Shown piece by piece: positions 19,056 through 32,690 of a stretch of DNA of 64,000 bases. Both the position numbers and the translations under genes were made by a program. Under the pieces are notes generated by a model that did not search any database, had not been told where the DNA came from, and saw nothing but the letters and a program-made list of their open reading frames with translations. The DNA comes from Streptococcus anginosus (lineage in GTDB: Bacteria; Bacillota; Bacilli; Lactobacillales; Streptococcaceae): positions 654,501 to 718,500 of the forward strand of contig NZ_CP012719.1 of NCBI RefSeq assembly GCF_001697145.1, written 5' to 3'. Each line of letters opens with the position of its first letter. Within the stretch, counting starts at the first letter, position 1.

Positions 19056-20336
19056 ATGGATAAAATTATTATACAAGGCAGTTCGAATCCATTAGTTGGT
19101 TCGGTTAAAATTGAAGGTGCCAAAAATGCTGTTTTGCCTTTGCTTGCAGCAACTATTCTAGCGACGACAGGGAAAACAACTCTAACCAATGTTCCGGTTC
19201 TATCAGATGTGTTTACGATGAACAATGTGGTTCGTGGATTGAATACAAAAGTGACTTTTGAGCAAGAAGAAAACCGGATTACGGTGGATGCTACACAGCC
19301 GTTGAGTGAAGAAGCGCCTTATAAATATGTGAGTAAAATGCGTGCTTCAATTGTTGTATTAGGACCTATTTTGGCGCGTAATGGTCACGCAAAAGTTTCC
19401 ATGCCGGGTGGCTGTACGATTGGAAGCCGTCCTATTGACCTTCATTTGAAAGGTTTAGAGGCAATGGGAGCAGAAATTAAGCAGACGGCTGGATTTATCG
19501 AAGCAAAAGCTGACCAATTGCATGGAGCTCATATCTATATGGACTTTCCAAGTGTAGGGGCGACACAAAACATTATGATGGCAGCAACGTTAGCAGACGG
19601 TGTGACCGTTATTGAAAATGCAGCTCGGGAGCCTGAAATTGTGGATTTAGCTGTTTTGTTAAACAAAATGGGGGCTAAAGTCCGTGGAGCAGGTACGGAA
19701 ACATTAACCATTACTGGGGTTAAGGAATTGTCTGGGACAAGTCATAGCGTGGTGCAAGATCGTATCGAAGCTGGAACTTTTATGGTAGCAGCTGCTATGA
19801 CAGGTGGCAATGTTCTTGTGCAAGATGCTATCTGGGAGCATAATCGTCCCCTCATTGCGAAACTGATGGAAATGGGTGTGTCTGTTACCGAAGAGGACGA
19901 AGGAATTCGGATTTGTTCGGATTTATCCAAGTTAAAAGCGGTCAATGTGAAGACTCTTCCGCATCCAGGTTTCCCGACAGATATGCAGGCGCAATTTACA
20001 GCTTTGATGACGGTTGCCAAGGGTGAGTCTACCATGATTGAGACTGTTTTTGAGAATCGTTTTCAACATCTGGAAGAAATGCGTCGGATGGGTTTACATT
20101 CAGAAATTATGCGGGACACAGCTCGTATCGTTGGTGGTCAAGCCTTGCAAGGGGCAGAGGTGATGTCAACAGACTTGCGTGCGAGTGCCGCGCTGATTTT
20201 AACAGGCTTGGTTGCAGAAGGTGAAACAAAAGTAGGACAACTAACTCATTTGGACAGAGGATATTATCAGTTCCATAAAAAGTTGGCTAACTTAGGTGCT
20301 TCTATTAAGCGAGTGAAGGAAGAAGACGATGAATAA
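19056..20336 (+). CDS. murA: UDP-N-acetylglucosamine 1-carboxyvinyltransferase
   Basis: 426 residues. [17 protein letters not shown] near the N-terminus and the loop [16 protein letters not shown] with catalytic Cys120 identify MurA. It transfers enolpyruvate to UDP-GlcNAc, the first committed step of peptidoglycan synthesis, and is the fosfomycin target (Cys form, therefore expected sensitive). Streptococci carry two MurA paralogues; this locus next to atp/epuA/endA holds the one usually called murA or murA1. epuA overlaps its end by 8 nt. Confidence 0.96.
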
Positions 20337-20505
20337 TGATTTGAAATATGTTGGAAAACAAGTCGGAATTGTTCTGATAGTCTTATTGTTGGGTTTGATT
20401 TTGTTTGCACTCGGTTTAGTTGTTGGTTATGGTGGAAAAAATCCATGGGCTATTTTATCGCCAGATAAGTGGCAGGAGATTATCAGCAAATTCACAGGAC
20501 AATAG
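20329..20505 (+). CDS. epuA: EpuA family small membrane protein
   Basis: 58 residues ([13 protein letters not shown]...SKFTGQ), with one transmembrane helix (about 12-34) followed by [17 protein letters not shown], the hallmark of the EpuA family. Some databases label the family DNA-directed RNA polymerase subunit beta-like, but no catalytic role is shown. It overlaps murA and precedes endA, the arrangement known in Streptococcus pneumoniae. Confidence 0.85.
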
Positions 20506-20519
20506 ACAATAATATTGAT

Positions 20520-20582
20520 AGGAAAAAGGGAGTGAGACAGAGGTCGTGATTTCGTAGAAATTGGCTTTGAGTCCCGCTTCCT
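20520..20582. repeat. Imperfect inverted repeat between epuA and endA
   Basis: AGGAA..GGGA arms (from 20520) can pair with TCCC..TTCCT (to 20582). The GGGAGTGAGACAG / GTCCC wording resembles the GTCCCACTCCC hairpin after endA, suggesting a family of streptococcal intergenic hairpins. It has no strong T-tract, so read-through into endA is likely. Confidence 0.35.
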
Positions 20583-20603
20583 ATTTATTTAAAAGGGGGA
20601 GAA

Positions 20604-21449
20604 ATGGCGAGAAAGAAATCCAATCAGAAAGTAGCACAAAGTGTAGCTGGTTTGGTTATAGCACTGGTTCTTGCGCTGGGAGGTTATTCTTTTAGCAATC
20701 ATCATGGTAGTACGAAGCCTTCTGACAGCACTGCTATTAATCGAAGTATTCGAACGAATCATGCAGCACCCAGTCAAGAATTAGCACAGAGTGTTTTGAC
20801 AGAGTCCGTTAAACGGCAACTCAAAGGAAAGATTGAATGGAATGGGGCAGGAGCCTTCACAATCAATGAAAATAAAACAACATTGGATGCTAAAGTTGCA
20901 AGCGTTCCTTATGCGGATAATAAGACTAAACTCGTCCGAGGTCAGACCGTTCCGACGGTTGCAAATGCTCTTTTATCCAAAACAACTCGCCAATATAGAA
21001 GTCGTGAAGAAACAGGAAATCGCTCCACGACTTGGACGCCTGCTGGTTGGCATCAAGTCAAGCATTTATCAGGTGAATACAACCATGCAGTTGACCGAGG
21101 ACATTTGTTGGGTTATGCTTTGATTGGTAACTTGAAAGGGTTTGATGCTTCGACCAGTAACCCGAAAAATATAGCTGTGCAAACAGCTTGGGCTAATCAA
21201 GCAAATACTAGTCATTCTACGGGTCAAAATTTCTATGAAACAAAGGTTCGCAAGGCACTAGACAAAAATAAACGAGTTCGGTATCGAGTGACTTTGATTT
21301 ATGCCAATGAACAGGATTTAGTGCCAGTTGGTTCGCATATTGAAGCTAAATCAAGCGATAGTAGCTTGGAAATGAATGTTTTTGTTCCCAACGTACAGAC
21401 AGGACTTCGGCTAAATTATCAAACAGGAGAAGTGACCGTTACCAACTAG
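20604..21449 (+). CDS. endA: DNA-entry nuclease (DNA/RNA non-specific endonuclease)
   Basis: 281 residues. An N-terminal hydrophobic segment (about 13-28) is a signal anchor; the nuclease domain has the DRGH motif with the general base His167 ([11 protein letters not shown]) and the Mg-binding Asn in the following helix. EndA degrades one strand of DNA during natural transformation and, in pathogenic relatives, also digests extracellular DNA. AGGGGGAG lies 4-5 nt before the ATG. It is transcribed after epuA and followed by the promoter of the next operon. Confidence 0.93.
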
Positions 21450-21462
21450 ATTATTGCTAGCG

Positions 21463-21491
21463 TTGCATTTATATCATATTTTTGTTATACT
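21463..21491 (+). promoter_or_regulatory. Promoter of the ABC exporter operon
   Basis: TTGCAT (21463-21468), 17-bp spacer, TATACT (21486-21491). Predicted start near 21498, giving a leader of about 240 nt before the first ABC gene. Confidence 0.7.
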
Positions 21492-21501
21492 ATTGTTACA
21501 T

Positions 21502-21671
21502 GAGGTCGGACAAAAAGTATCTCAGCCTCTATCTAATTTAGTGATAAGCGAATGACGCAGTAGGTGATTGGACTCTTTATTCGCTTTTCAAGCTCGAAAG
21601 AGCACCTAATCACCCTCGCGGGGGTGGGACCACGAACTTAAATTTTTCAAGATAAGTTCTGTCCCACTCCC
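21502..21671. repeat. Intergenic repeat element, copy A
   Basis: The order of motifs here (GAGG...TCTCAGCCTC, then AAGCGAATGACGCAGTAGGTGATT, then AGCACCTAATCACC, then a final hairpin) is repeated in diverged form at 38944-39170 after galE. This suggests a mobile or formerly mobile intergenic repeat family. Confidence 0.4.
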
Positions 21672-21680
21672 ATTTTGTCT

Positions 21681-21703
21681 AAAAAGTACGTTGGTGCTTT
21701 TTT
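21681..21703 (+). terminator. Intrinsic terminator in the ABC exporter leader
   Basis: AAAAAGTAC (21681-21689) pairs with GTGCTTTTT (21694-21702) with one G-U pair and loop GTTG; the U-run extends to 21703. It lies between the promoter and the ATG at 21739. Confidence 0.6.
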
Positions 21704-21738
21704 ATTGTGGATTTGTTTTATGAGGAGAAAGGAGAAAC

Positions 21739-23478
21739 ATGAAGTATATTTGGTCTTATTTGAAAAAATATCCCAAATGGTTGATGTTGGATTTCTTTGG
21801 TGCTGTCTTCTTTGTCGTGGTGAATCTCGGTTTGCCGACTGTTTTGGCACGAATGATTGACGAAGGGATTAATCGAGGAGACAGCAATCGTTTGTATTAT
21901 TGGGCGATTGTGATGCTTATTGTGATTTTGTTGGGAATTTTGGGGCGGATCGTGCTTTCTTATGCAGCTGGTAAGTTGACAACGAGTATGGTGCGTGATA
22001 TGCGTAATGACATCTACGACAAATTGCAAGAGTATTCGCATCATGAATATGAGCAAATTGGCGTTTCGTCTTTGGTGACACGGATTACCAGTGATGCCTT
22101 TGTTCTCATGCAATTTGCAGAGCAATCCTTAAAAATGGGTGTCGTCACGCCTATGATGATGATTTCCAGTGTGATGATGATTTTTGTCACCAGCCCCTCT
22201 TTAGCTTGGATTGTCGCAATTTCCGTTCCTTTTCTCGGCATTGTCGTTTGGTATATAGCAGTCAAGACTCGTCCTTTATCAGAAAAACAACAAAAAACGT
22301 TAGATAAAATCAATCAATACGCACGTGAGAATTTAATGGGGCTGCGCGTTATTCGTGCTTTTGCTCGAGAAGAATTTCAAGAAGAGCGTTTTGCTTCACA
22401 AAATGAAATTTATGCGGATAATTCCAATCGCTTATTTAAATTAACTGGTTTGACAGAACCGCTCTTTGTTCAAATCATCATTGCCATGATTGTTGCTATT
22501 GTCTGGTTTGCTTTAAAACCACTTGGTACAGGAGACTTGCAAATTGGCGATTTAGTTGCTTTTATCGAATACAGTTTTCATGCATTGCTGTCTTTCTTGT
22601 TGCTATCTAGCTTGTTTACGATGTATCCTCGTACAGCTGTTTCAAGTGAACGCTTGAAAGAAGTAATGGAAATGCCGATTTCGATCAATCCAAACGAAGA
22701 CGGTGTTACGGAGACAGACAGTCACGGTTATTTAGAGTTTGACAATGTTACTTTTGCTTATCCTGGTGAGACTGAAAGCCCAGTGCTACATGATATTTCG
22801 TTCAAAGCGAAACCTGGTGAAACGATTGCTTTTATCGGATCAACTGGTTCAGGAAAGTCTTCATTGGTGCAATTGATTCCGCGTTTCTATGACGTGACAC
22901 TTGGAAAGATTTTAGTAGACGGAGTGGACGTGCGTTCTTATAACCTAAAAGCGCTTCGGCAGAAGATAGGTTTCATTCCACAAAAAGCTCTGCTCTTTAC
23001 CGGCACAATCGCAGAAAACCTTCGCTATGGGAAAGAAAATGCTAGTCGTGAGGAATTGGTGCAAGCAGCAGATGTAGCACAAGCGAGAGACTTTATCGAA
23101 AGCAAGGAAGAGCGTTTTGAAACGCATTTGGCAGAAGGAGGGAGCAATCTCTCTGGTGGTCAAAAGCAACGTCTCTCCATTGCGCGGGCAGTCGTAAAAG
23201 AGCCAGATATTTATATTTTTGATGATTCGTTTTCCGCTTTGGACTATAAGACCGATGCCATTCTTCGAAGTCGACTCAAAGAAGTTACGCAAAATGCTAC
23301 TGTATTGATTGTAGCACAACGTGTGGGAACCATTATGGATGCAGATCAGATTATTGTTCTGGATAAGGGAGAAATTGTCGGGCGCGGAACGCATGAAGAA
23401 TTGATGCAAGATAACGACATCTATCGCGAAATTGCCAATTCTCAGCTCAATAGTCAATCACTAACAGAAGAAGAATAG
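21739..23478 (+). CDS. Heterodimeric multidrug-type ABC exporter, subunit with degenerate ATP site
   Basis: 579 residues: six-helix exporter membrane domain (about 15-310) and a nucleotide-binding domain (about 335-570). Walker A GSTGSGKSS at 367-375 and signature LSGGQKQR are normal, but Walker B ends DDSFSALD with Asp instead of the catalytic Glu, and the switch His is Gln in VAQRVGTI. This is the pattern of the degenerate half in heterodimers such as BmrC or TM287. It is expected to pair with the protein encoded 15 bp downstream. The substrate is unknown; drug efflux is inferred from family resemblance. AAAGGAG precedes the ATG. Confidence 0.9.
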   Translation: MKYIWSYLKKYPKWLMLDFFGAVFFVVVNLGLPTVLARMIDEGINRGDSNRLYYWAIVMLIVILLGILGRIVLSYAAGKLTTSMVRDMRNDIYDKLQEYSHHEYEQIGVSSLVTRITSDAFVLMQFAEQSLKMGVVTPMMMISSVMMIFVTSPSLAWIVAISVPFLGIVVWYIAVKTRPLSEKQQKTLDKINQYARENLMGLRVIRAFAREEFQEERFASQNEIYADNSNRLFKLTGLTEPLFVQIIIAMIVAIVWFALKPLGTGDLQIGDLVAFIEYSFHALLSFLLLSSLFTMYPRTAVSSERLKEVMEMPISINPNEDGVTETDSHGYLEFDNVTFAYPGETESPVLHDISFKAKPGETIAFIGSTGSGKSSLVQLIPRFYDVTLGKILVDGVDVRSYNLKALRQKIGFIPQKALLFTGTIAENLRYGKENASREELVQAADVAQARDFIESKEERFETHLAEGGSNLSGGQKQRLSIARAVVKEPDIYIFDDSFSALDYKTDAILRSRLKEVTQNATVLIVAQRVGTIMDADQIIVLDKGEIVGRGTHEELMQDNDIYREIANSQLNSQSLTEEE

Positions 23479-23492
23479 GAGGGAAAGAGAAA

Positions 23493-25265
23493 ATGAAAAA
23501 ACAACATAGTTTTATTCGTTTGTGGAGTTACTTAAAAGTTTATAAAGCTTCCGTTATCCTTGCTATCTTTTTGAAGGTGGTGAGTATTGTGATGAGTGTG
23601 TTAGAACCATTTATTATCGGATTAGCGATTACGGAAGTGACACGAAATGTATTGGATATGGCAAAAGGAGTGGAAGGCGCAAGCATTAATACCACGTATG
23701 TCTTTTGGATAATGGCGCTCTACCTCTTGCGTGGCTTATTCTATGAAATTGGAGCATATTATTCAAATTATTTTATGACCAATGCGGTGCAAAATACGGT
23801 ACGCGATATGCGCAATGAACTCAGTCATAAAATCAATCAAATTCCGGTTTCTTATTTTGATAAACATCAATTTGGAGATTTGCTAGGACGTTTTACCAGT
23901 GATGTAGAAACTGTCTCAAATGCGCTTCAACAATCATTCTTACAAGTTGTAAATGCGGTTTTGACCATTACCTTAGTTATCGGAATGGTCTTGTATCTTA
24001 ATTTTCAACTGGCTTTGATAGTGATTGCTAGCATTCCGTTGACCTATTTGGGGGCAAACTTTATTTTGAAAAAATCACAACCGTATTTTAAAAAGCAAGC
24101 AGATACGCTAGGTGTCATGAATGGATTTGTTCAAGAAAATCTAACTGGTTTTAATGTGCTGAAACTCTATGGCCGTGAAGAAACATCTTCAAACGATTTT
24201 CGAGAAATCACGCAAAACCTCCAAGAAGTCGGATTCAAAGCTAGTTTTATTTCTGGCTTGATGATGCCAATTTTGAACGCAATTTCAGATTTGACTTATC
24301 TGCTTGTAGCAGTTGTTGGTGGTTTGCAAGTCATTTCTGGACAATTAACAATTGGGAACATGCAAGCATTCGTACAATATGTGTGGCAAGTAAACCAACC
24401 AATCCAAAACTTAACGCAACTAGCTGGGCAATTGCAGAGTGCTAAGTCTTCGCTGGATCGTGTTTTCCAAGTCTTGGATGAACCAGACGAAGTAACAGAT
24501 GCGAAAGAGCGGCTGGAACATGATTTGACAGGTCAGGTCAGCTTCAAGCATGTTGACTTTCAATACGTGGAAAACAAACCGCTCATTCGAGACTTCAACT
24601 TAGAGGTTAAGCCGGGCGAAATGGTGGCGATTGTCGGTCCAACAGGTGCCGGAAAGACCACCCTCATCAATCTACTCATGCGCTTTTACGATGTAACAGC
24701 AGGTTCAATTTCTGTGGATGGTCACGATATTCGCAACTTATCGCGCCAAGATTACCGCAAACAATTTGGTATGGTCTTGCAAGACGCTTGGCTTTATGAA
24801 GGAACAGTCAAAGAAAACTTGCGCTTTGGAAATCTGAATGCGACAGATGAAGAGATTGTGGAAGCCGCCAAAGCAGCTAATGTCGATCATTTCATTCGGA
24901 CGCTTCCAGGTGGCTATAATATGGAAATGAATCAGGAATCCAGCAATATTTCGCTAGGACAAAAACAATTGCTGACCATTGCGCGAGCACTATTGGCAAA
25001 TCCCAAAATCTTAATTTTGGATGAAGCAACCTCGTCGGTTGATACGCGCTTAGAGCTTTTGATTCAAAAGGCGATGAAGAACCTCATGCAAGGACGGACA
25101 AGCTTTGTCATTGCTCACCGCTTATCGACGATTCAAGAGGCAGATAAGATTTTGGTTCTCAAAGATGGACAAATCATTGAGCAAGGAACTCACGAATCGC
25201 TTTTAGCTGATAAAGGTTTCTATTACGACTTATATACAAGTCAGTTTGCCAAGAAAGAAGCCTAA
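23493..25265 (+). CDS. Heterodimeric multidrug-type ABC exporter, catalytic subunit
   Basis: 590 residues: membrane domain (about 15-320) and nucleotide-binding domain. Walker A GPTGAGKTT at 382-390, Walker B ILILDEATSSVD with the catalytic Glu, and switch His in IAHRLSTI are intact, while the signature is the non-canonical SLGQK. In the dimer this weak signature faces the degenerate Walker site of the upstream subunit, leaving one consensus site. It is translated from a GGAGGGAAAG site and ends the operon before a terminator. Confidence 0.9.
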   Translation: MKKQHSFIRLWSYLKVYKASVILAIFLKVVSIVMSVLEPFIIGLAITEVTRNVLDMAKGVEGASINTTYVFWIMALYLLRGLFYEIGAYYSNYFMTNAVQNTVRDMRNELSHKINQIPVSYFDKHQFGDLLGRFTSDVETVSNALQQSFLQVVNAVLTITLVIGMVLYLNFQLALIVIASIPLTYLGANFILKKSQPYFKKQADTLGVMNGFVQENLTGFNVLKLYGREETSSNDFREITQNLQEVGFKASFISGLMMPILNAISDLTYLLVAVVGGLQVISGQLTIGNMQAFVQYVWQVNQPIQNLTQLAGQLQSAKSSLDRVFQVLDEPDEVTDAKERLEHDLTGQVSFKHVDFQYVENKPLIRDFNLEVKPGEMVAIVGPTGAGKTTLINLLMRFYDVTAGSISVDGHDIRNLSRQDYRKQFGMVLQDAWLYEGTVKENLRFGNLNATDEEIVEAAKAANVDHFIRTLPGGYNMEMNQESSNISLGQKQLLTIARALLANPKILILDEATSSVDTRLELLIQKAMKNLMQGRTSFVIAHRLSTIQEADKILVLKDGQIIEQGTHESLLADKGFYYDLYTSQFAKKEA

Positions 25266-25305
25266 CGAATAAAGGAGCAAAACAAAACTCCAACGAAACA
25301 ATAAA

Positions 25306-25360
25306 AGCACGAACCCTGTCTTGACTAGCAGTTAGCTAATCTGGACGAGTTCGTGTTTTT
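25306..25360 (+). terminator. Terminator of the ABC exporter operon
   Basis: CACGAAC (25308-25314) pairs with GTTCGTG (25349-25355), with an inner stem GACTAGC/GCTAATC, followed by TTTTTC. Confidence 0.85.
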
Positions 25361-25449
25361 CTATCCTTAGCGGCACAAAGCTAAAATGCAATTGCTCTGT
25401 CTCACAACTATTTTTTGCTAAATCTTCAAAATTGCATCATATTTCTTCC
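25361..25449. other. Intergenic spacer before the tandem repeat
   Basis: About 90 bp with small inverted repeats only (for example ATGCAAT near 25386 and ATTGCAT near 25432). No gene is seen. Confidence 0.5.
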
Positions 25450-25940
25450 GTCCGCCCGGCGGACGAAGTGAACTAGTTTTGGTTTATAGTGTCAGCCGAG
25501 CGGATGGGGTGGATTAGTTTTGATTTATATTGTCAGCCGAGCGGATGGGGTGGATTAGTTTTGATTTATACTGTCAGCCGAGCGGATGGGGTGGATTAGT
25601 TTTGGTTTATTGTGTCAGCTGGGCGGACGAAGTGAATGAGTTTTGGTTTATAGTGTCAGCCGAGCGGATGGGGTGGATTAGTTTTGATTTATATTGTCAG
25701 CCGAGCGGATGGGGTGGATTAGTTTTGATTTATACTGTCAGCCGAGCGGATGGGGTGGATTAGTTTTGGTTTATTGTGTCAGCTGGGCGGACGAAGTGAA
25801 TGAGTTTGGGTTTATAGTGTCAGCCGAGCGGACGAGGCGAATGAGTTTCAGTTTACTTCGTCGTCCTGGTCGACGGTCTGAACCAGTTTCAGTTTACTTT
25901 GTCGCCTCGGTCGACAGCTTCAATCGTTTTCTACGAATTG
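25450..25940. repeat. 41-bp tandem repeat array, 12 units
   Basis: Units start at 25450, 25491, 25532, 25573, 25614, 25655, 25696, 25737, 25778, 25819, 25860 and 25901 (last one 40 bp). Each begins with a 15-bp core GTC-N9-GAC or GAT; in the first unit it is a perfect dyad, GTCCGCC-C-GGCGGAC. The remainder is AT-rich, around TTTTGGTTTATA. Units at the ends are more diverged than those in the middle. The period is not a multiple of three, and the apparent peptides across it repeat only because three units restore the frame, so it is unlikely to be coding. It lies between convergent genes. Confidence 0.95.
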
Positions 25941-25966
25941 TTCATTCCGTTAAGTAAAATTACGCC

Positions 25967-26968
25967 TTATCGAAAGAGGTTAGTAAGCCAAACAATGAAA
26001 TACAATCCAAGAAAAATAGCGTGCCATTTCCAATAAAGCACGATCAGTCCAAGCGTTTCACGTATCCAAGATGATGGTAGAAAATAAGGTGCTGTTCGGG
26101 AACCTATACTACGTCCTTTCAAACCAATCTTTCGCATGTAAATACCCGCTCGCAAGGAGTGGAAAGAATTGGTGACAACTAGACAACGATAATTTTTCTC
26201 ACGTGTCTCATCCAAAATTGCTTTGCTAAAACGCAAATTTTCTAAGGTATTGGTTGACTGCCGTTCAATTATAATATCTTCTTGTGGAATACCTACTTGC
26301 CTTAAATATTGCGCCATTGCTTCTGCTTCGGTTATTGGTTCATCGACACCTTGTCCTCCAGAAACGACAATTTTGGGATGGTTATGAAATTTTTCATACA
26401 TCGTCTTCCCCTTTTCGAGTCGTTGAGCGAGAAGAGGTGGAACCTTGTCTCCTATCAAACCAGACCCTAAGATGATGATGTAGTCTGGATGTTTTATGAC
26501 GGGCAATACATTATAAACAAAACCGTAAAGGATATAGGTCACATAAAGATAGCTACCATAAATTAGAAGTCCATTTGTAAGAGATAGGATTTTATGAAGA
26601 AAGATAAAATGAGGAAAGAAAAAAGTAAGCGCTAGGGAAAGAGCAATAGCGAGTCCATAAAAGAGGGAGAGAAGGTTTGCTAAACGCCTGCCTTCAAAGG
26701 TCATCATCTGTCTGCCATTAAAAATGAGATAAATGGTTGAAATTATAACACTCAAAGGAATGAAAAGTGCTAAGATGAGCAAAGAAAGCATTGCCAGATT
26801 TCTATTGACAAGTTGTTCCATATGAATCACAAACAAACCAGAAACGATAGCGGCGAATAAAATTAAAACGATACTAAGCAAATACGCATTGAAGAGTCGC
26901 CTTGGCTCTATATAAAACAAGACAAGAAAAAGAAGAGTAGGAAGAAGCCAAATAAGATGCAATACCAT
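25967..26968 (-). CDS. YdcF/SanA-like DUF218 membrane protein
   Basis: 333 residues. The first 160 or so form four to five membrane helices; the DUF218 domain follows (about 165-305) with DYIIILGSGLIGDKVPPLLAQRL, IVVSGGQG, ESTNTLENLRFS-like STNTLENL and VVTNSFHSLRAG; a last hydrophobic helix ends the protein. The family is linked to envelope processes, but no reaction is firmly assigned. It is a single gene convergent with the ABC exporter operon. An extended -10 lies upstream on the minus strand. Confidence 0.88.
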   Translation of the reverse strand: MVLHLIWLLPTLLFLVLFYIEPRRLFNAYLLSIVLILFAAIVSGLFVIHMEQLVNRNLAMLSLLILALFIPLSVIISTIYLIFNGRQMMTFEGRRLANLLSLFYGLAIALSLALTFFFPHFIFLHKILSLTNGLLIYGSYLYVTYILYGFVYNVLPVIKHPDYIIILGSGLIGDKVPPLLAQRLEKGKTMYEKFHNHPKIVVSGGQGVDEPITEAEAMAQYLRQVGIPQEDIIIERQSTNTLENLRFSKAILDETREKNYRCLVVTNSFHSLRAGIYMRKIGLKGRSIGSRTAPYFLPSSWIRETLGLIVLYWKWHAIFLGLYFIVWLTNLFR

Positions 26969-27004
26969 AATGTGATAACAATCCTTTCAAACAGATTCCT
27001 TTTT

Positions 27005-27013
27005 AGTATAGCA
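27005..27013 (-). promoter_or_regulatory. Extended -10 promoter of the DUF218 gene
   Basis: Read on the minus strand, TGC followed by TATACT. The predicted start is about 30 nt before the ATG. The -35 region is T-rich without a clear consensus. Confidence 0.5.
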
Positions 27014-27061
27014 TAAAAGTTCCTGTAAAAAAGTAGATTTAAAAAACAATGGACTTAAAAA

Positions 27062-27091
27062 TTGAAATATTATTAAAAAATATGGTATAAT
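27062..27091 (+). promoter_or_regulatory. Promoter of ssrA
   Basis: TTGAAA (27062-27067), 18-bp spacer, TATAAT (27086-27091) with extended TGG. The mature RNA begins 14 nt downstream. Confidence 0.75.
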
Positions 27092-27104
27092 ATTTTTATG
27101 TCTT

Positions 27105-27451
27105 GGGGTCGTTACGGATTCGACAGGCATTATGAGGCACATTTTGCGACTCATCGAGCGGATGTAAAGCGCCAGTTAAATATAACTGCAAAAAATAATA
27201 ATTCTTACGCTTTAGCTGCCTAAAAAACAGCCAGCGTGACCAGATTCGGATCGCTCGTGTTCGATGACCGGTCTTAATAATAGCGAGATACGATTAAGCC
27301 TTGTCTAGGGGCTTGATAAGAGACTGATAGACTCGCTTGGCTTGGGCTTGAGTTATGTGTCAAAGCGAAGTTAAATCCAATACATAACCTATGGTTGTAG
27401 ACAAATGTGTTGGCAGGTGTTTGGACGTGGGTTCAATTCCCACCGGCTCCA
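27105..27451 (+). ncRNA. ssrA: Transfer-messenger RNA (tmRNA)
   Basis: The 5' end GGGGTCGTTACGGATTCGAC and the 3' end GGGTTCAATTCCCACCGGCTCCA form the tRNA-Ala-like part, with GGGGTCG pairing with CGGCTCC and CCA encoded. The tag frame at 27188-27223 reads AKNNNSYALAA then TAA, a streptococcal-type degradation tag. The RNA rescues stalled ribosomes with SmpB. It is one continuous (not permuted) molecule of 347 nt. Confidence 0.97.
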
Positions 27452-27462
27452 TTGTTAAATAT

Positions 27463-27550
27463 GGAAGATTACTCAAGAGGCTTAAGAGGCTGTGTTGGAA
27501 ACGCAGTAGGCGTGTGAAAGCGTGCGTGGGTTCGAATCCCATGTCTTCCG
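27463..27550 (+). tRNA. tRNA-Ser (anticodon GGA)
   Basis: 88 nt with acceptor stem GGAAGAT/GTCTTCC, anticodon stem CTGTG/CGCAG around TTGGAAA (GGA at 27497-27499), a long variable arm typical of serine tRNAs, and T arm GTGGGTTCGAATCCCAT. Discriminator G at 27550; CCA is not encoded. It is 11 bp after ssrA, so the two RNAs are probably made as one precursor. Confidence 0.96.
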
Positions 27551-27559
27551 TTTTGTTAC

Positions 27560-27587
27560 AAAACGCTCGTTAGTGGCGTTTTTTTTA
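27560..27587 (+). terminator. Terminator after ssrA and tRNA-Ser
   Basis: AAAACGC (27560-27566) and GCGTTTT (27576-27582) with the T-run to 27586. Confidence 0.8.
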
Positions 27588-27600
27588 CTAGAAGATAAAA

Positions 27601-27637
27601 TGAGTGAAGAGAACGGATTCACTCATTTATTTTTTGA
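27601..27637 (+). terminator. Second terminator-like hairpin before lrgA
   Basis: TGAGTGAA (27601-27608) pairs perfectly with TTCACTCA (27618-27625), followed by a T-rich tract. Confidence 0.65.
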
Positions 27638-27643
27638 AAAATA

Positions 27644-27671
27644 TTGAAATTTTTCTGAAAAGTAGTAGACT
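27644..27671 (+). promoter_or_regulatory. Promoter of lrgAB
   Basis: TTGAAA (27644-27649), 16-bp spacer, TAGACT (27666-27671). GGAGG follows about 15 nt downstream for the GTG start of lrgA. Confidence 0.55.
27649..27663 (+). promoter_or_regulatory. CodY-box-like operator in the lrgAB promoter
   Basis: ATTTTTCTGAAAAGT matches the CodY consensus AATTTTCWGAAAATT at 13 of 15 positions and fills the spacer between -35 and -10. CodY control of lrgAB is reported in Streptococcus mutans; here it is inferred from the site. Confidence 0.55.
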
Positions 27672-27697
27672 GTAACTAGAAAGTTTGGAGGTTTCTC

Positions 27698-28078
27698 GTG
27701 AAATTATACGTACAATTGATGATTATTTTTTCAATTTCTTTGATAGGAGAAGGGATTTCCTATCTTTTTCATTTGCCTATTCCGGGGAGTATTATTGGGC
27801 TTATTCTTCTTTTTTTGGCTTTGCAATTTAAAATTTTCAGATTGCGGCATGTGAGTATGGTGGGAAATTTTTTATTAGCCAATATGACCATTTTATTTTT
27901 GCCGCCAGCAGTCGGAATTATGGATAAATTTCATGTCATTGCGCCTTATCTGCTGCCGATTGTTTTGATTATTGTTGGAGCGATTGTAATCAATGTGATT
28001 GTCATTGCCGTGGTTGTTCATTTTATCAAAAATCGCTTTGAAGGAGATTACGGAGAAGGAGAAACAAGAAATGTCTAA
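27698..28078 (+). CDS. lrgA: LrgA/CidA family holin-like membrane protein
   Basis: 126 residues with four membrane helices and the family signature FHLPIPGSIIGLILLFLAL. It starts with GTG at 27698 behind GGAGG. LrgA acts with LrgB; the pair was first described as an antiholin system controlling autolysis, and in Streptococcus mutans LrgAB takes up pyruvate. lrgB starts inside its last codons. Confidence 0.92.
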   Translation: MKLYVQLMIIFSISLIGEGISYLFHLPIPGSIIGLILLFLALQFKIFRLRHVSMVGNFLLANMTILFLPPAVGIMDKFHVIAPYLLPIVLIIVGAIVINVIVIAVVVHFIKNRFEGDYGEGETRNV

Positions 28079-28766
28079 TTTGTGGGGCAATCCTTTATTT
28101 GGTTTGGCTTTATCGATCTTTGCTTATCTGGTAGGAATGTTGATTTTTCGCAGATTTCCGCATCCTTTGACAACACCTTTGCTTCTAGCCACCATATTTG
28201 TCATTGTATTTTTAAAATTGACAGGAATTTCTTATAAACATTACTACATAGGTGGAACGTATTTGAATAATCTCATTGTGCCGTCAACGGTTGCACTGGG
28301 AATTCCTTTGTATAAAACATTTCATCTCATGAAACACCATGCCAGAAGCATTTTGATTGGTACTTTTGTAGCAGTGGTAGTGAACACTAGTTTTACGGCC
28401 TTGGTCGCCAAGGCTTTTGGAATGGATTTTTTCTTAGCAATTTCACTCTTTCCCAAATCAGTAACAACAGCTATGGCGGTTGGAATTACAGATAAAATGC
28501 AAGGGCTGACGACGGTGACGTTGGTGGTCGTAGTAGCAACGGGAATTTTGACAAGTGTGATAGGACCGACTGTTTTAAGGATTTTAAAAATCAAAGATCC
28601 TGTTGCAGTAGGCTTAGCTCTTGGAGGAACGGGACATGCTGTTGGGACAGGGACAGCCTTTAAATACGGACAAGTTGCAGGTGCTATGGCTGGTCTAGCT
28701 ATTGGCGTGACAGGGATTATGTATGTGATTGTCAGTCCAATTGTTGCAAGTATTATTTTAAAATAG
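28071..28766 (+). CDS. lrgB: LrgB family membrane protein
   Basis: 231 residues from ATG 28071 (MSNLWGNPLFGLALSIFAYL), overlapping lrgA by 8 nt with GGAGAAGGAG upstream; an earlier in-frame ATG (27999) lies deep in lrgA and is rejected. Many membrane helices and the LFPKSVTTAMAVGITDKMQGL and GTGHAVGTGTAFKYG motifs identify LrgB. It forms the transport or lysis-control unit with LrgA. Confidence 0.92.
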   Translation: MSNLWGNPLFGLALSIFAYLVGMLIFRRFPHPLTTPLLLATIFVIVFLKLTGISYKHYYIGGTYLNNLIVPSTVALGIPLYKTFHLMKHHARSILIGTFVAVVVNTSFTALVAKAFGMDFFLAISLFPKSVTTAMAVGITDKMQGLTTVTLVVVVATGILTSVIGPTVLRILKIKDPVAVGLALGGTGHAVGTGTAFKYGQVAGAMAGLAIGVTGIMYVIVSPIVASIILK

Positions 28767-28841
28767 CAAAAAACGAGAATGACTGTGCTGTGACTATTTT
28801 TTGAAAGCAAGTATGTTTTCTGCCCCATTTCTTAAAAAACA

Positions 28842-28850
28842 TGATATAAT
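28842..28850 (+). promoter_or_regulatory. Extended -10 promoter of apt
   Basis: TGA followed by TATAAT (28845-28850), about 34 nt before the apt ATG. Confidence 0.6.
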
Positions 28851-28883
28851 AGAGAGTAAAAACTTTTTGATAGAAAGACAGTT

Positions 28884-29396
28884 ATGGATTTAAAAGATTA
28901 TATTGCAACCATTGAAAATTACCCGCAAGAAGGGATTTTATTTCGTGACATTAGCCCATTGATGGCAGATGGAAATGCCTATAGCTATGCTATTCGTGAA
29001 ATTGTCCAATATGCTACGGACAAGAAAATTGATATGATTGTCGGTCCAGAAGCGCGTGGATTTATTGTTGGATGTCCGGTAGCTTATGAGCTTGGAGTTG
29101 GTTTTGCTCCAGTACGTAAGCCTGGGAAATTGCCTCGTGAGGTTATCTCAGCTAGTTATGAAAAAGAGTATGGTGTAGATACCTTAACAATGCACGCTGA
29201 CTCTATCAAACCTGGACAGCGTGTACTGATTGTTGATGACCTTCTTGCAACAGGAGGAACGGTTAAAGCAACAATTGAAATGGTTGAACGTTTAGGTGGT
29301 ATCGTTGCAGGTTGCGCTTTCCTTATTGAATTGGATGAATTGAAGGGACGCGAAGCTATTGGTAACTACGATTACAAAGTTCTCATGCATTATTAA
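28884..29396 (+). CDS. apt: Adenine phosphoribosyltransferase
   Basis: 170 residues. The type I phosphoribosyltransferase PRPP loop [13 protein letters not shown] is near residue 115-127, and the [18 protein letters not shown] block is typical of Apt. It converts adenine and PRPP to AMP in purine salvage. It has its own promoter and is probably monocistronic; no convincing terminator separates it from metA. Confidence 0.96.
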
Positions 29397-29398
29397 GG

Positions 29399-29415
29399 TA
29401 TAAGTAAAAGCTATA
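29399..29415 (+). promoter_or_regulatory. Weak MET-box-like palindrome upstream of metA
   Basis: TATAAGTAAAAGCTATA has TATA/TATA ends and matches about 11 of 17 positions of the MtaR/MetR box TATAGTTTSAAACTATA. It is 34 bp upstream of a better copy. Confidence 0.35.
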
Positions 29416-29432
29416 TCTTGTTGTAGAAAAAG

Positions 29433-29449
29433 TATAATTGAAAACTATA
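29433..29449 (+). promoter_or_regulatory. MET box at the metA promoter
   Basis: TATAATTGAAAACTATA matches about 14 of 17 positions of the streptococcal MtaR/MetR (LysR-type) methionine regulator consensus. It overlaps the -35 hexamer at 29438-29443. Confidence 0.55.
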
Positions 29450-29466
29450 TCTCCTTTCAGTATAAT
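29438..29466 (+). promoter_or_regulatory. Promoter of metA
   Basis: TTGAAA (29438-29443), 17-bp spacer, TATAAT (29461-29466). Predicted start near 29473; AAAAGGAG lies 9 nt before the ATG. Confidence 0.8.
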
Positions 29467-29495
29467 AAAAGCAGAAAGCAAAAGGAGATATTTTC

Positions 29496-30440
29496 ATGCC
29501 TATTAAAATTGATAAGAAATTACCAGCTGTTGACATTTTAAGATCTGAGAATATCTTTGTCATGGATGATGAGCGTGCAGAACACCAAGATATTCGTCCT
29601 CTGAATATCTTGATTTTGAATTTAATGCCGCAAAAAACAGTAACAGAAACGCAGTTGTTGCGTCATTTAGCAAATACGCCATTGCAACTTCGGATTGAAT
29701 TTCTTTATATGACTTCTCATACCTTCAAAACGACACATGCGGACTATATGGAGACCTTTTATAAGACTTTTGATGAGATCAAGGGTCGTTATTTTGACGG
29801 TTTGATTGTCACTGGAGCGCCAGTCGAGCATTTGCCTTTTGAAGCAGTAGATTATTGGGAAGAATTTCGACAAGTTATTAACTGGTCCAAATCGCATGTT
29901 TACTCAACGTTGCATATTTGTTGGGGAGCGCAAGCAGCTCTTTATGCTCGTTATGGCATTGCCAAACACCAGATGAAGCGCAAGTTGTCCGGTATTTATA
30001 GTCAATCCACACCAGAAAAACCAAATTTGTTGTTTCGTGGTTTTGATGATGAATACGCAGCTCCTCATTCGCGTTATACAGAAGTTCGCAAAGAGGATAT
30101 TTTAAACAAGAGTAATTTGGAAATTTTAGCTTGTGGAGAAGAGGTTGGTGTCTCCGTTGTGGCAAGTCGTGATCTTCGCGAAGTGTATAGCTTTGGTCAT
30201 TTGGAATATGACCGCGAGACCTTGGCAAAAGAATATTTGCGTGATGTAGACGAAGGGCTGAATCCGCATATTCCAGAAAATTATTTCAAAAATGATGACG
30301 TTACTTCAGTTCCCTGTTTACGATGGAATCTGGCTGCGGCGCTGTTTTTCAACAATTGGATTAATTATGCTGTTTATCAAGAAACGCCATTTGACTGGGC
30401 AAATGCAGCAAATGACGCTTCCTTGTTTGCTTATTTATAA
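29496..30440 (+). CDS. metA: Homoserine O-acetyltransferase, MetA family
   Basis: 314 residues. The catalytic Cys142 is in [11 protein letters not shown], and the HLEYDRETL segment carries the catalytic His. Residue 111 is Glu ([10 protein letters not shown]); in this family Glu at that position goes with acetyl-CoA use and Gly with succinyl-CoA, so acetyl transfer is more likely than the common label succinyltransferase. It activates homoserine for methionine synthesis. dnaD follows after 8 bp, probably by read-through. Confidence 0.93.
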
Positions 30441-30448
30441 GAGGTGTT

Positions 30449-31123
30449 ATGACTTATTTATCAGCGTATAAGACGGGCAATTTAGTATTGCCAACTGAGC
30501 TTCTTTTTCATTTTCATGAGATATTTGATAATAGTGATGACTTTTTGGTCTGGCAATTTTTCTATTTGCAAAATACAACGTCGCTAGAAGAGATTTCTCC
30601 TGTTCAGATTGCAGAAAGTATCGGGAAATCCGTTGCAGAGGTCAATCGCTCTATGTCAAATTTGACAGAAAAAGGATTGTTGCAGTATAAAACGATTGCC
30701 CTCAATGGTGAAATTGAGGCAGTTTTTGATGCGCTACCAGCGCTTGAACGATTAGATGAAATTGTAGAAAGTCGCTCAAGCGTTGCGCAAACTGTTTCTC
30801 AAAATGTTTTAAAAGACTTGGTCGAGACTTTCCAGCAAGAATTAGGTCGTCTCTTGACACCATTTGAAATCGAGGATTTGACAAAAACGATTCAAGATGA
30901 CAAGACCAGTCCTGAACTTGTTACTGCTGCTCTTCGTGAAGCTGTTTTTAATGGAAAGGCAAACTGGAAATACATCCAAGCTATTTTGCGGAATTGGCGC
31001 CGTGAAGGCATTACAACAGTAGCACAGGTAGAAGCGAAGCGAGAAGAACGTGAAGCGGCAAATCCGCAAAATATCACTGTCTCAGATGATTTTTTGAAGG
31101 CTATGGATTTGTGGCGAGATTAA
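30449..31123 (+). CDS. dnaD: DnaD family replication protein
   Basis: 224 residues. An N-terminal winged-helix region (about 1-100, with IAESIGKSVAEVNRSMSNLTEKGLL) is followed by a DnaB_2-type domain (about 125-195) with FEIEDLTKTI and the NWKYIQAILRNWRREGI motif. DnaD remodels DNA during primosome loading in low-GC Gram-positives. It overlaps neither neighbour; GAGGTG precedes the ATG. A terminator follows. Confidence 0.92.
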   Translation: MTYLSAYKTGNLVLPTELLFHFHEIFDNSDDFLVWQFFYLQNTTSLEEISPVQIAESIGKSVAEVNRSMSNLTEKGLLQYKTIALNGEIEAVFDALPALERLDEIVESRSSVAQTVSQNVLKDLVETFQQELGRLLTPFEIEDLTKTIQDDKTSPELVTAALREAVFNGKANWKYIQAILRNWRREGITTVAQVEAKREEREAANPQNITVSDDFLKAMDLWRD

Positions 31124-31130
31124 GATGTCG

Positions 31131-31162
31131 GAGTTTATTCCCTTGGAATAGACTCTTTTTTT
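31131..31162 (+). terminator. Terminator after dnaD
   Basis: GAGTTTATTCC (31131-31141) pairs with GGAATAGACTC (31145-31155) with one G-U pair, then TTTTTTT. Confidence 0.85.
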
Positions 31163-31175
31163 AGTTCCTTAAAAA

Positions 31176-31184
31176 TGATATACT
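31176..31184 (+). promoter_or_regulatory. Extended -10 promoter of the trmK operon
   Basis: TGA followed by TATACT (31179-31184), 33 nt before the trmK ATG. Confidence 0.55.
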
Positions 31185-31216
31185 AAGTGAAACGATTATT
31201 TTAGAAATGAGTTATC

Positions 31217-31906
31217 ATGCAAGTAAAGAATATCTCAAAACGTTTGAGAAAAGTAGCTGGTTTTGTACCACAGGATGCCAAAATCTTGGATGTAGGAAGT
31301 GACCACGCTTATTTACCGATTTATCTAATTCAGCAGGGTAGCATTTCCTCAGCCATTGCTGGTGAAGTTGTTGAGGGACCTTATCAGTCTGCGGTGACGA
31401 ATGTAGCCGATAACCAGATGTCCGATAAAATTTCTGTTCGTTTGGCAAATGGTTTGGCAGCTTTTGATGCAGAAGATCAGATTGATGTTATCGTTATTGC
31501 AGGAATGGGAGGAGGATTGATAGCAGATATTTTAGACAATGACAGTGCAAAATTAGCATCTGTTAAGCGCCTGATTCTTCAGCCTAACAATCGGGAAGAT
31601 GAACTTCGCAGGTGGTTGTGTGGTCATAATTTTCAAATTACAGAAGAAGCTATTGTGGAAGAAAATGGGAAATTTTACGAGATAATGATAGCTGAACAGG
31701 GGCATCAAGTGTTGAATGCTAAACAAGAACGCTTCGGACCTTATCTAATGAGGGAGCAATCAGCTGTTTTTCTAGATAAATGGCAGCGAGAAGTAGACAA
31801 GCTGGAAAAAGCTCTGGCTAAAATCCCTGAGAAAAATCTAACGGAACGCTCTGCTATGTCCCAAAAAATCAAGCAAATCAAGGAGGTACTGCATGCTGGC
31901 AAGTGA
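31217..31906 (+). CDS. trmK: tRNA (adenine(22)-N1)-methyltransferase
   Basis: 229 residues. The SAM-binding motif [17 protein letters not shown] (about 18-35) and [16 protein letters not shown] are characteristic of TrmK; the C-terminal part is a coiled helical domain. It methylates A22 of tRNAs. The Nif3-like gene overlaps its end by 14 nt, the usual arrangement in Firmicutes. Confidence 0.94.
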
Positions 31907-32690
31907 TGTTATTAACCGTTATGAAGCATACTGTCCTAAGGATCTGTCCATGACGGGAGATGTCTGCGGACTGCAAATTGGAACTCTGAATAAGGAAGTT
32001 AAGCGAGTACTGATAGCTTTGGATATCCGCGAGCAGACAGTTGCAGAGGCGATTGAAAAAGATGTAGATTTGATTTTGGTTAAACACGCACCGATCTTTC
32101 GGCCTATTAAGGATTTAGTGGCAGACCGACCTCAGAATCAGATTTACATCGATCTGATTAAGCACGATATTGCAGTCTATGTCAGCCATACCAATATTGA
32201 TATTGTGGATGACGGTCTCAATGACTGGTTCTGTGATCTACTAGAAATCACTGATACGGATTATCTTAGCGAAACGGTTCCTGGACACGGCATTGGTCGT
32301 ATTGGCAAGATTGCACCTCAGACTTTTGGAGACTTTGCAGGCAAGGTTAAGGAAACTTTTGGTCTGGATAGTCTGCGTTTGGTGACTTATTCGGCTGTGG
32401 ATCTGGAGCGAATGATTGAGAAAGTGGCAATCTGTGGTGGCAGTGGTCAGTCCTTTTACAAGGAGGCTTTAGCACAGGGCGCTCAGCTTTATATTACAGG
32501 TGATATTTACTACCATACAGCACAGGATATGCTGAGCGAGGGACTTCTAGCTTTGGATCCGGGTCACCATATAGAAGTGCTCTTTGTAGAAAAATTAGTT
32601 GAAAAATTTCAAGACTGGAAAGTAGAAGAGAGTTGGGAAGTTGAATTTTTAGCCAGTCAGGTTTCTACAAATCCTTTTAAATATATCTAA
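31893..32690 (+). CDS. Nif3-like dinuclear metal-centre protein (YqfO type)
   Basis: 265 residues with the family landmarks: [23 protein letters not shown], the metal-binding VKHAPIFRP and YVSHTNIDI motifs and, near the C-terminus, [17 protein letters not shown] cyclohydrolase I type 2 is a common automatic label, but the biochemical role is not settled. It is cotranscribed and overlapping with trmK. Confidence 0.92.

Follow-up and report, generated by a model that had tools for sequence, protein, structure and literature searches.

A 41-bp tandem repeat array of Streptococcus anginosus belongs to a dispersed family linked to DUF6261 genes

The array and its surroundings

The array discussed here lies within a 64,000-nucleotide stretch of Streptococcus anginosus DNA (contig NZ_CP012719.1, positions 654,501 to 718,500), referred to below as the window. 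It is flanked by two convergent genes. The left-hand open reading frame, at 23493-25265 on the forward strand, resembles ABC transporters (a name given by eye), and the right-hand one, at 25967-26968 on the reverse strand, is one that we take to encode a YdcF/SanA-like protein. Between the left-hand frame and the array, at 25302-25365, a terminator-like inverted repeat (CACGAAC ... GTTCGTG, followed by a T-run) can be made out by eye; the scan tool missed it, probably owing to its long loop. Past the right-hand frame, the region 27105-27551 holds a tmRNA gene (tag AKNNNSYALAA) that is followed directly by tRNA-Ser (gga). No ParA/ParB-type genes were recognized by eye among the open reading frames overlapping positions 22000-29500.

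The intergenic space is filled by 12 tandem units of 41 bp (25450-25933), each of which includes a 15-bp core with full or partial two-fold symmetry. A script placed the cores at 25450 + 41n (25450, 25491, and so on to 25901), and Tandem Repeats Finder reported a period of 41 at 25474-25832. The 12-unit, 41-bp array between convergent genes that had been proposed in an earlier note, made from the letters alone, is thus real, and it fits the description of a tandem array with a 40-42-bp unit built around a symmetric core. The first core (GTCCGC-CCG-GCGGAC, 25450-25464) is the perfect dyad that the note had described, with all six pairs matched. The cores of units 11 and 12 (25860-25915) do differ from the rest in their inner arms and keep the GTC/GAC ends, again as described, and each forms five of the six possible pairs. 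The further claim of a GTC-N9-GAC dyad in every unit holds for half of the array: the ends are exactly GTC/GAC in units 1, 5, 9, 10, 11, and 12, whereas units 2, 3, 4, 6, 7, and 8 have GTC...GAT ends and form four of the six pairs. A four-pair dyad arises in 53% of shuffles of one such GTC/GAT unit and is unsurprising in a single unit, so the significance of the dyad comes from the repeat family described below and not from the window array itself.

Nor do the 12 units amount to 12 independent observations, since a 164-bp block comprising units 2-5 (25483-25646) is repeated as units 6-9 (25647-25810). The two copies are identical at 163 of 164 positions, and Tandem Repeats Finder also reports a period of 164 at 25458-25832, with 98% matches. 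The array is crossed by open reading frames of 77 and 87 aa that are no more than readings of the repeat itself, and Rfam gave no family for the array region at an E-value of 5 or better.

The earlier note had suggested looking for the same array at the same place in related streptococci. It is present there in two related genomes, with six units in G112 and five in G280; a third, G130, has a shorter and diverged stretch of about four units, counted by eye, in which the dyad is still present. A unit number that is 12, 6, 5, or about 4 at a single site looks weakly constrained. Absence from close relatives together with random substitution in the core, the pattern that the note would have taken as the mark of a neutral minisatellite, is not what the nearest species display.

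A dispersed family of arrays with a fixed pitch

The window array is no lone minisatellite; it belongs to a dispersed repeat family. When 118 genomes of the genus, the host included, were searched at the DNA level, more arrays turned up in the host itself and in one other genome. A two-unit covariance model (R1) was built from 63 gapless unit pairs at 12 loci, and its 131 matches in the host genome fall, by our grouping, into at least 11 places; this count comes from scoring 150 of 390 first-look candidates, so more arrays may exist. R1 matches occur in 11 of 284 Streptococcus genomes, again including the host, a lower bound in view of the stricter filters applied. The first two units of the window are scored by R1 at an E-value of 6.8e-25, a value that is true by construction because window units are in the training set. 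Despite diverging flanks, the pitch is 41 in nearly all spacings. By our reading at least five of the 11 host arrays lie between convergent genes. The arrays of eight loci, scanned against Rfam at gathering scores, matched no family. A T-box leader match was seen in the flank of another host array (L068, 4774-5010).

Across these arrays the core arms come in several kinds, including CGC/GCG, CGA/TCG, GAC/GTC, and others, and they change in a paired way, which supports the conserved symmetry that the earlier note had suspected. Over a set of 63 sequences, the share of core cells that pair is 85.1%, as compared with 75.4% in shuffles, and 65 cells carry changes on both sides as compared with 20 in shuffles. 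When the partner is slid by one base, pairing falls to 47.1% or 9.9%. One measure shows no increase, namely the count of additional pair types (16 versus 17.8 in the same comparison). The rows share units and descent, so the core covariation counts as support and not as proof; palindrome-correcting mutation could also yield the same pattern of paired changes. The flanks are symmetric in composition and show little covariation. An extended hairpin, in which flank would pair with flank, was considered and rejected, as there are just nine both-side-change cells in the flank helix and fewer both-side changes in the spacer helix than in shuffles. TIGR and CRISPR-like readings were dropped on the reasoning that it is symmetric arms that vary here and not spacers.

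Arrays upstream of DUF6261 genes in streptococci

At a number of loci the array lies within about 100 bp of, or touches, the 5' end of a gene for a protein of about 250 aa. This layout was found in the host (L076), G130 (L083 and L085), S. massiliensis (L086), a metagenome-assembled genome (MAG; L088), G225 (L089), G228 (L090), S. sinensis (L091), and G040 (L092), and likewise in a Chryseobacterium MAG (L109) and C. edaphi (L104). All six of the neighboring proteins tested belong to DUF6261 (PF19775; E-values of 9e-40 to 4e-37), which is the sole Pfam match above cut-off in each. Outside the host's clade, which comprises the host with G112, G130, and G280, six of eight arrays, by our grouping, immediately precede a DUF6261 gene, a distribution that suggests an original leader position and later dispersal. 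The window array is one of the dispersed copies and not a leader: neither a DUF6261 gene nor a remnant of one occurs within window positions 20001-32000, and the host's three copies are located elsewhere. At L075 in the host and L077 in G280 an array lies beside a DUF6261 remnant in which residues 1-14 are followed directly by residues 218-246. Upstream of the host's third DUF6261 gene (L209, 324 kb) a degenerate repeat of roughly 42-44 bp can be seen by eye.

Among the 284 Streptococcus genomes, DUF6261 is found in 90 at an E-value of 0.001 or better, 88 of them above cut-off. It is present in 10 of the 11 genomes with R1 arrays as compared with 80 of the 273 others (Fisher p 5.8e-5, uncorrected for kinship). 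The exception, G167, combines a weak array match with the absence of DUF6261, and the 80 DUF6261-bearing genomes on the other side gave no R1 match.

Most Streptococcus leaders have diverged too far to register as plain repeats. Tandem Repeats Finder detected an array at a multiple of 41 bp at only one of 30 DUF6261 loci (L126), and a stricter chain search found 41-bp chains of at least three members at four of the 30. In a plain dyad scan of the leaders the lag of 41 came out on top (37.5, with other lags reaching up to 35); such a scan is weak on AT-rich leaders, and a core-based count was therefore used instead. Among 27 Streptococcus leaders, this count finds core pairs at a pitch of 40-43 (41 at 14 loci) and of 32-34 (eight loci), the rest of the range between 28 and 59 being empty; 13 of the 27 are without a core pair at 41. 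In the set comprising L091, L092, and L112-L136, the DUF6261 gene and its array are common to the species and the sequence upstream of the leader array varies; some of the genes lie near short open reading frames that resemble, by eye, small proteins of type VII secretion or immunity proteins.

The same layout in the Bacteroidota

A collection of 84,980 species was scanned by layout alone, that is, by the outer GTC/GAC, the flank letters, and the 41-bp period. The scan returned 14 stretches. Arrays were found in four Streptococcus records, C. edaphi (three stretches), a Chryseobacterium MAG, and Tannerella MAGs (three stretches); the last three stretches, one each from Belliella, Pedobacter, and an Acidimicrobiia MAG, were isolated chance matches. 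The four genomes of Bacteroidota with arrays contain 5, 2, 7, and 3 DUF6261 matches; Belliella and Pedobacter, the two chance-match genomes that were searched, contain none. In the Chryseobacterium and Tannerella MAGs the same array layout is again found ahead of DUF6261, and the pairing of gene and array suggests a two-part protein/repeat system that occurs in streptococci and in the distant Bacteroidota. The gene can be highly reiterated: in the family to which one Tannerella MAG belongs, DUF6261 is present in 39 of 59 genomes, two of which have at least 52 copies each. One Tannerella protein (L101, 3294-4277) extends about 80 residues further at its C terminus than the streptococcal ones.

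Six Bacteroidota genomes were studied at 94 DUF6261 genes, 78 of which have an upstream array of units of about 41 bp or multiples of it. The array-led genes number 27 of 35 in G310, 16 of 19 in G328, 11 of 14 in G323, 12 of 14 in G341, 9 of 9 in G332, and 3 of 3 in G344; the genes fetched, as with the 35 of G310, were mostly the best-scoring ones, which may favor intact modules. The best-scoring periods at the 94 loci are 40-42, 80-86, 123, 126, and 172, with 24, 29, and 33 occurring once each and no period at 13 loci. Pairs of dyads upstream of 34 Bacteroidota genes show peaks at 41 bp (133 versus 6.5 in coding controls) and at 82 bp (109). At least one dyad is present in the consensus unit of 68 of the 78 arrays, the mean being 1.23 per unit as compared with 0.35 in shuffled units. 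Two dyads per unit are found in 24 of the 78, most commonly spaced 20-22 bp apart.

In G310, the one genome compared in this way, the constant pitch is combined with sequences that are private to each gene. The arrays there are similar to one another in all four pairs whose proteins are at least 80% identical and in none of the 347 other pairs, so that each DUF6261 gene has its own repeat unless the proteins are near copies at that level. Arrays of this kind are not limited to leaders, as 6 of 20 evenly spaced control stretches of G310 also hold them. Two of the six are beside DUF6261-like genes, and the remaining four (L308, L314, L317, and L325) come from among 18 stretches without DUF6261, some of them reaching the edge of the stretch. 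Each of these four has its own repeat at 40-42 bp or multiples, and the control arrays have no repeat in common with the 27 leaders (best E-value 0.13). From these counts the arrays are enriched ahead of DUF6261, yet not confined there, and the same is true of the host.

The DUF6261 protein

AlphaFold predicts an all-helical structure for DUF6261 (pLDDT 82.7, pTM 0.54; five sequences), with two of the five models much worse. The model has no Foldseek match at an E-value of 0.001 or better, and no DNA-binding fold was recognized in it. S23-type helical bundles (2rld and 2gsc) reached Z scores of about 8, in a range where caution is advised for helical bundles and the matches are uninformative, and were kept as a lead. 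A search by sequence for a relative of solved structure gave nothing at a useful E-value (best 0.98). ToxN did not appear among the fold matches, although a ToxN-like fold is still conceivable. No transposase family in Pfam, NCBIfam, or PHROGs matches the protein, and PADLOC and PHROGs gave weak partial matches only.

The whole-protein pI is 8.4-9.1 in three streptococcal DUF6261 proteins and 5.9 in one from Chryseobacterium. In G310 the core of the protein is not basic (median pI 6.3), and 29 of the 35 proteins have tails rich in PK/KP, which may be the parts that touch DNA. A prophage or plasmid origin was considered and rejected: nothing in plasmid or phage records matches the DUF6261 protein of the host, and viral contigs contain neither a DUF6261 relative (query A2) nor a match to the layout.

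What the arrays may do

The reading favored here, to which we assign a probability of about one half, is that DUF6261 binds its array as DNA, the array being a probable cluster of candidate sites. The home position of the repeat family would be directly upstream of DUF6261 genes, with the window array as a dispersed member. Each 41-bp unit presents one two-fold symmetric core, and part of the Bacteroidota arrays add a dyad half a unit away, so that symmetric sites recur every 20.5 bp or so (two helical turns) and like cores every 41 bp (four turns), all on one face of the helix. DUF6261 could bind this DNA as a dimer or oligomer, and from the leader array it might control its own gene. In the host's streptococcal clade it would in addition sit on arrays dispersed to other intergenic positions, and the one in the window would then be an extra site or a relic, any present role being conjectural. 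The earlier note had thought of a protein-binding array, an idea that gains from the conserved symmetry, the 40-42-bp pitch in unrelated sequences, the arrays at the same site in relatives, and a candidate partner in DUF6261; for the replication-fork or partition role that it also mentioned, nothing was found in favor.

An alternative is that the array acts as RNA, in the manner of type III toxin-antitoxin systems: the array would be transcribed, its 41-nt units would fold, and DUF6261 would bind or process the cognate RNA, with orphan arrays serving as decoys or spare antitoxins. TAnnTTTG is a promoter motif of the Bacteroidota, and upstream of the array it occurs at 12 of 74 loci on the sense strand (2.9 expected), as such a system would have it, and at 8 on the antisense strand (2.8 expected); with promoter-like sites on both strands, the arrays may be transcribed. 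The same motif is found between the array and the ATG, however, at 16 of 74 loci (4.3 expected; 2 on the antisense strand against 4.4), and 15 of the 17 sites in this gap are 33-56 bp from the ATG, so that a promoter-like site often follows the array. Private repeats of conserved unit length ahead of each gene do recall ToxI, with its units of 34-36 nt, but the definition given in the part of that account consulted calls for a terminator between repeats and gene (PMC5086642). The leader arrays generally do not have one, a terminator-like site, by our own simple criterion, being present at just 4 of 27 G310 loci. Nor do the dyads show an excess of G-U on the sense strand in either the Streptococcus or the Bacteroidota set: mismatches of the G-T and A-C kinds are equal in number in Streptococcus (20 each; 10 arrays of 26 loci), and they stand at 45 to 75 in the Bacteroidota (23 of 34), and at 25 to 43 in the 78 consensus units (composition-corrected p 0.18). 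With the all-helical prediction for DUF6261 and the lack of an adjoining DUF6261 gene at the window array, the RNA reading is improbable, and the constant pitch, the missing G-U excess, and the promoter-like sites in the gap favor clustered DNA binding sites.

The identity of the inner arms is harder to reconcile with sequence-specific binding. Units of one array bear differing inner arms, which a constraint on pairing alone (hairpin or cruciform) or palindrome-correcting mutation would fit better. A single-stranded hairpin DNA element, similar to REP/REPIN elements and their HUH transposase (RAYT), with DUF6261 aiding movement, would explain why pairing is retained as arm sequence changes, and it would suit the dispersal of arrays to several sites in one clade and the duplication of G310 modules together with their arrays. 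It is nonetheless highly improbable, given that DUF6261 matched no transposase family in the three collections searched, that no locus was shown to be a mobile insertion, and that plasmid and phage records lack the host's protein. Another possibility is that DUF6261-array modules spread, decayed, and lost their genes, leaving the window array as a relic or as the simple minisatellite for which the earlier note had allowed, neutral and growing and shrinking by slippage. The DUF6261 remnants beside arrays at L075 and L077 are just what such decay would leave, and the turnover of units (12, 6, and 5 at one site), the 164-bp duplication, the short diverged copy in G130, and the position of at least five of 11 host arrays between convergent genes, where insertions are least harmful, all point the same way. 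Against this, the window has no DUF6261 remnant near its array, the pairing of the cores is kept through changes on both sides, and the pitch of 41 is held while the flanks diverge; the relic reading is taken to be less likely than not.

The binding of DUF6261 to array DNA can also be put in a stronger form. DUF6261 and its array would then make up a two-part system not described before. Dozens of paralogues per genome would each recognize a lattice of symmetric DNA sites of its own, quick to diversify in sequence and spaced at two and four helical turns, protein and array co-diversifying with the geometry frozen; in some streptococci the protein would also occupy chromosomal arrays such as that in the window. 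This extension is put forward tentatively, with the odds somewhat against it.

Relation to known systems

One structural parallel is the sopC centromere of the F plasmid, a series of some 12 direct repeats, 43 bp long, in each of which a partition protein binds an inverted repeat. The number of repeats, their length, and the inverted repeat in each are all reminiscent of the window array. There is one such centromere per plasmid, however, and it lies beside sopAB, whereas the arrays described here are many and chromosomal, and no partition gene was noticed at the window array. Elements with 41-nt tandem direct repeats, termed 464/PgRS, are dispersed in the genome of Porphyromonas gingivalis, also a member of the Bacteroidota; in the portion of the source consulted they are described as repeat elements, with no partner protein or dyad layout, and the comparison is by description only (PMC4596501). 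The BOX elements of pneumococcus and S. suis are likewise dispersed and intergenic, with variable tandem modules predicted to fold, but they have boxA and boxC end modules around boxB, and the sections consulted report neither a constant 41-bp pitch nor a partner gene (PMC3049150). According to the abstract, the three pneumococcal repeats are almost wholly missing in other streptococci, the exceptions being S. mitis and the BOX relatives of S. suis (PMC3049150). Type III toxin-antitoxin loci share with the DUF6261 arrays tandem repeats of conserved length upstream of a gene, with sequences specific to each system; as far as the excerpt consulted goes, they pair an RNA that forms a pseudoknot with an endoribonuclease of the ToxN type, and a terminator separates the two (PMC5086642). 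The DUF6261 arrays differ in their symmetric dyads, a protein that is predicted to be helical, the usual lack of a terminator, and the existence of orphan arrays.

No literature linking DUF6261 to repeat arrays was found in a search that covered few subscription papers. The domain is named in one paper, where it stands in a table listing S. oralis changes in the part consulted (PMC10376253), and no 41-bp repeats were found in the part consulted of another (PMC5771137).

The window array is real, yet it is dispersed and weakly constrained, and it is the link to DUF6261 that is the finding of interest. A protein family that occurs in two phyla, and that reaches 52 copies or more in certain genomes, is bound up with a precise DNA architecture whose geometry is retained while its sequence varies from gene to gene. 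What began as an odd streptococcal minisatellite has thereby become a testable hypothesis with a named partner. If DUF6261 does read its own array, the many genes and their leaders would provide a ready-made library of proteins matched to their DNA sites, and they would represent a novel form of self-recognition or of chromosome marking.
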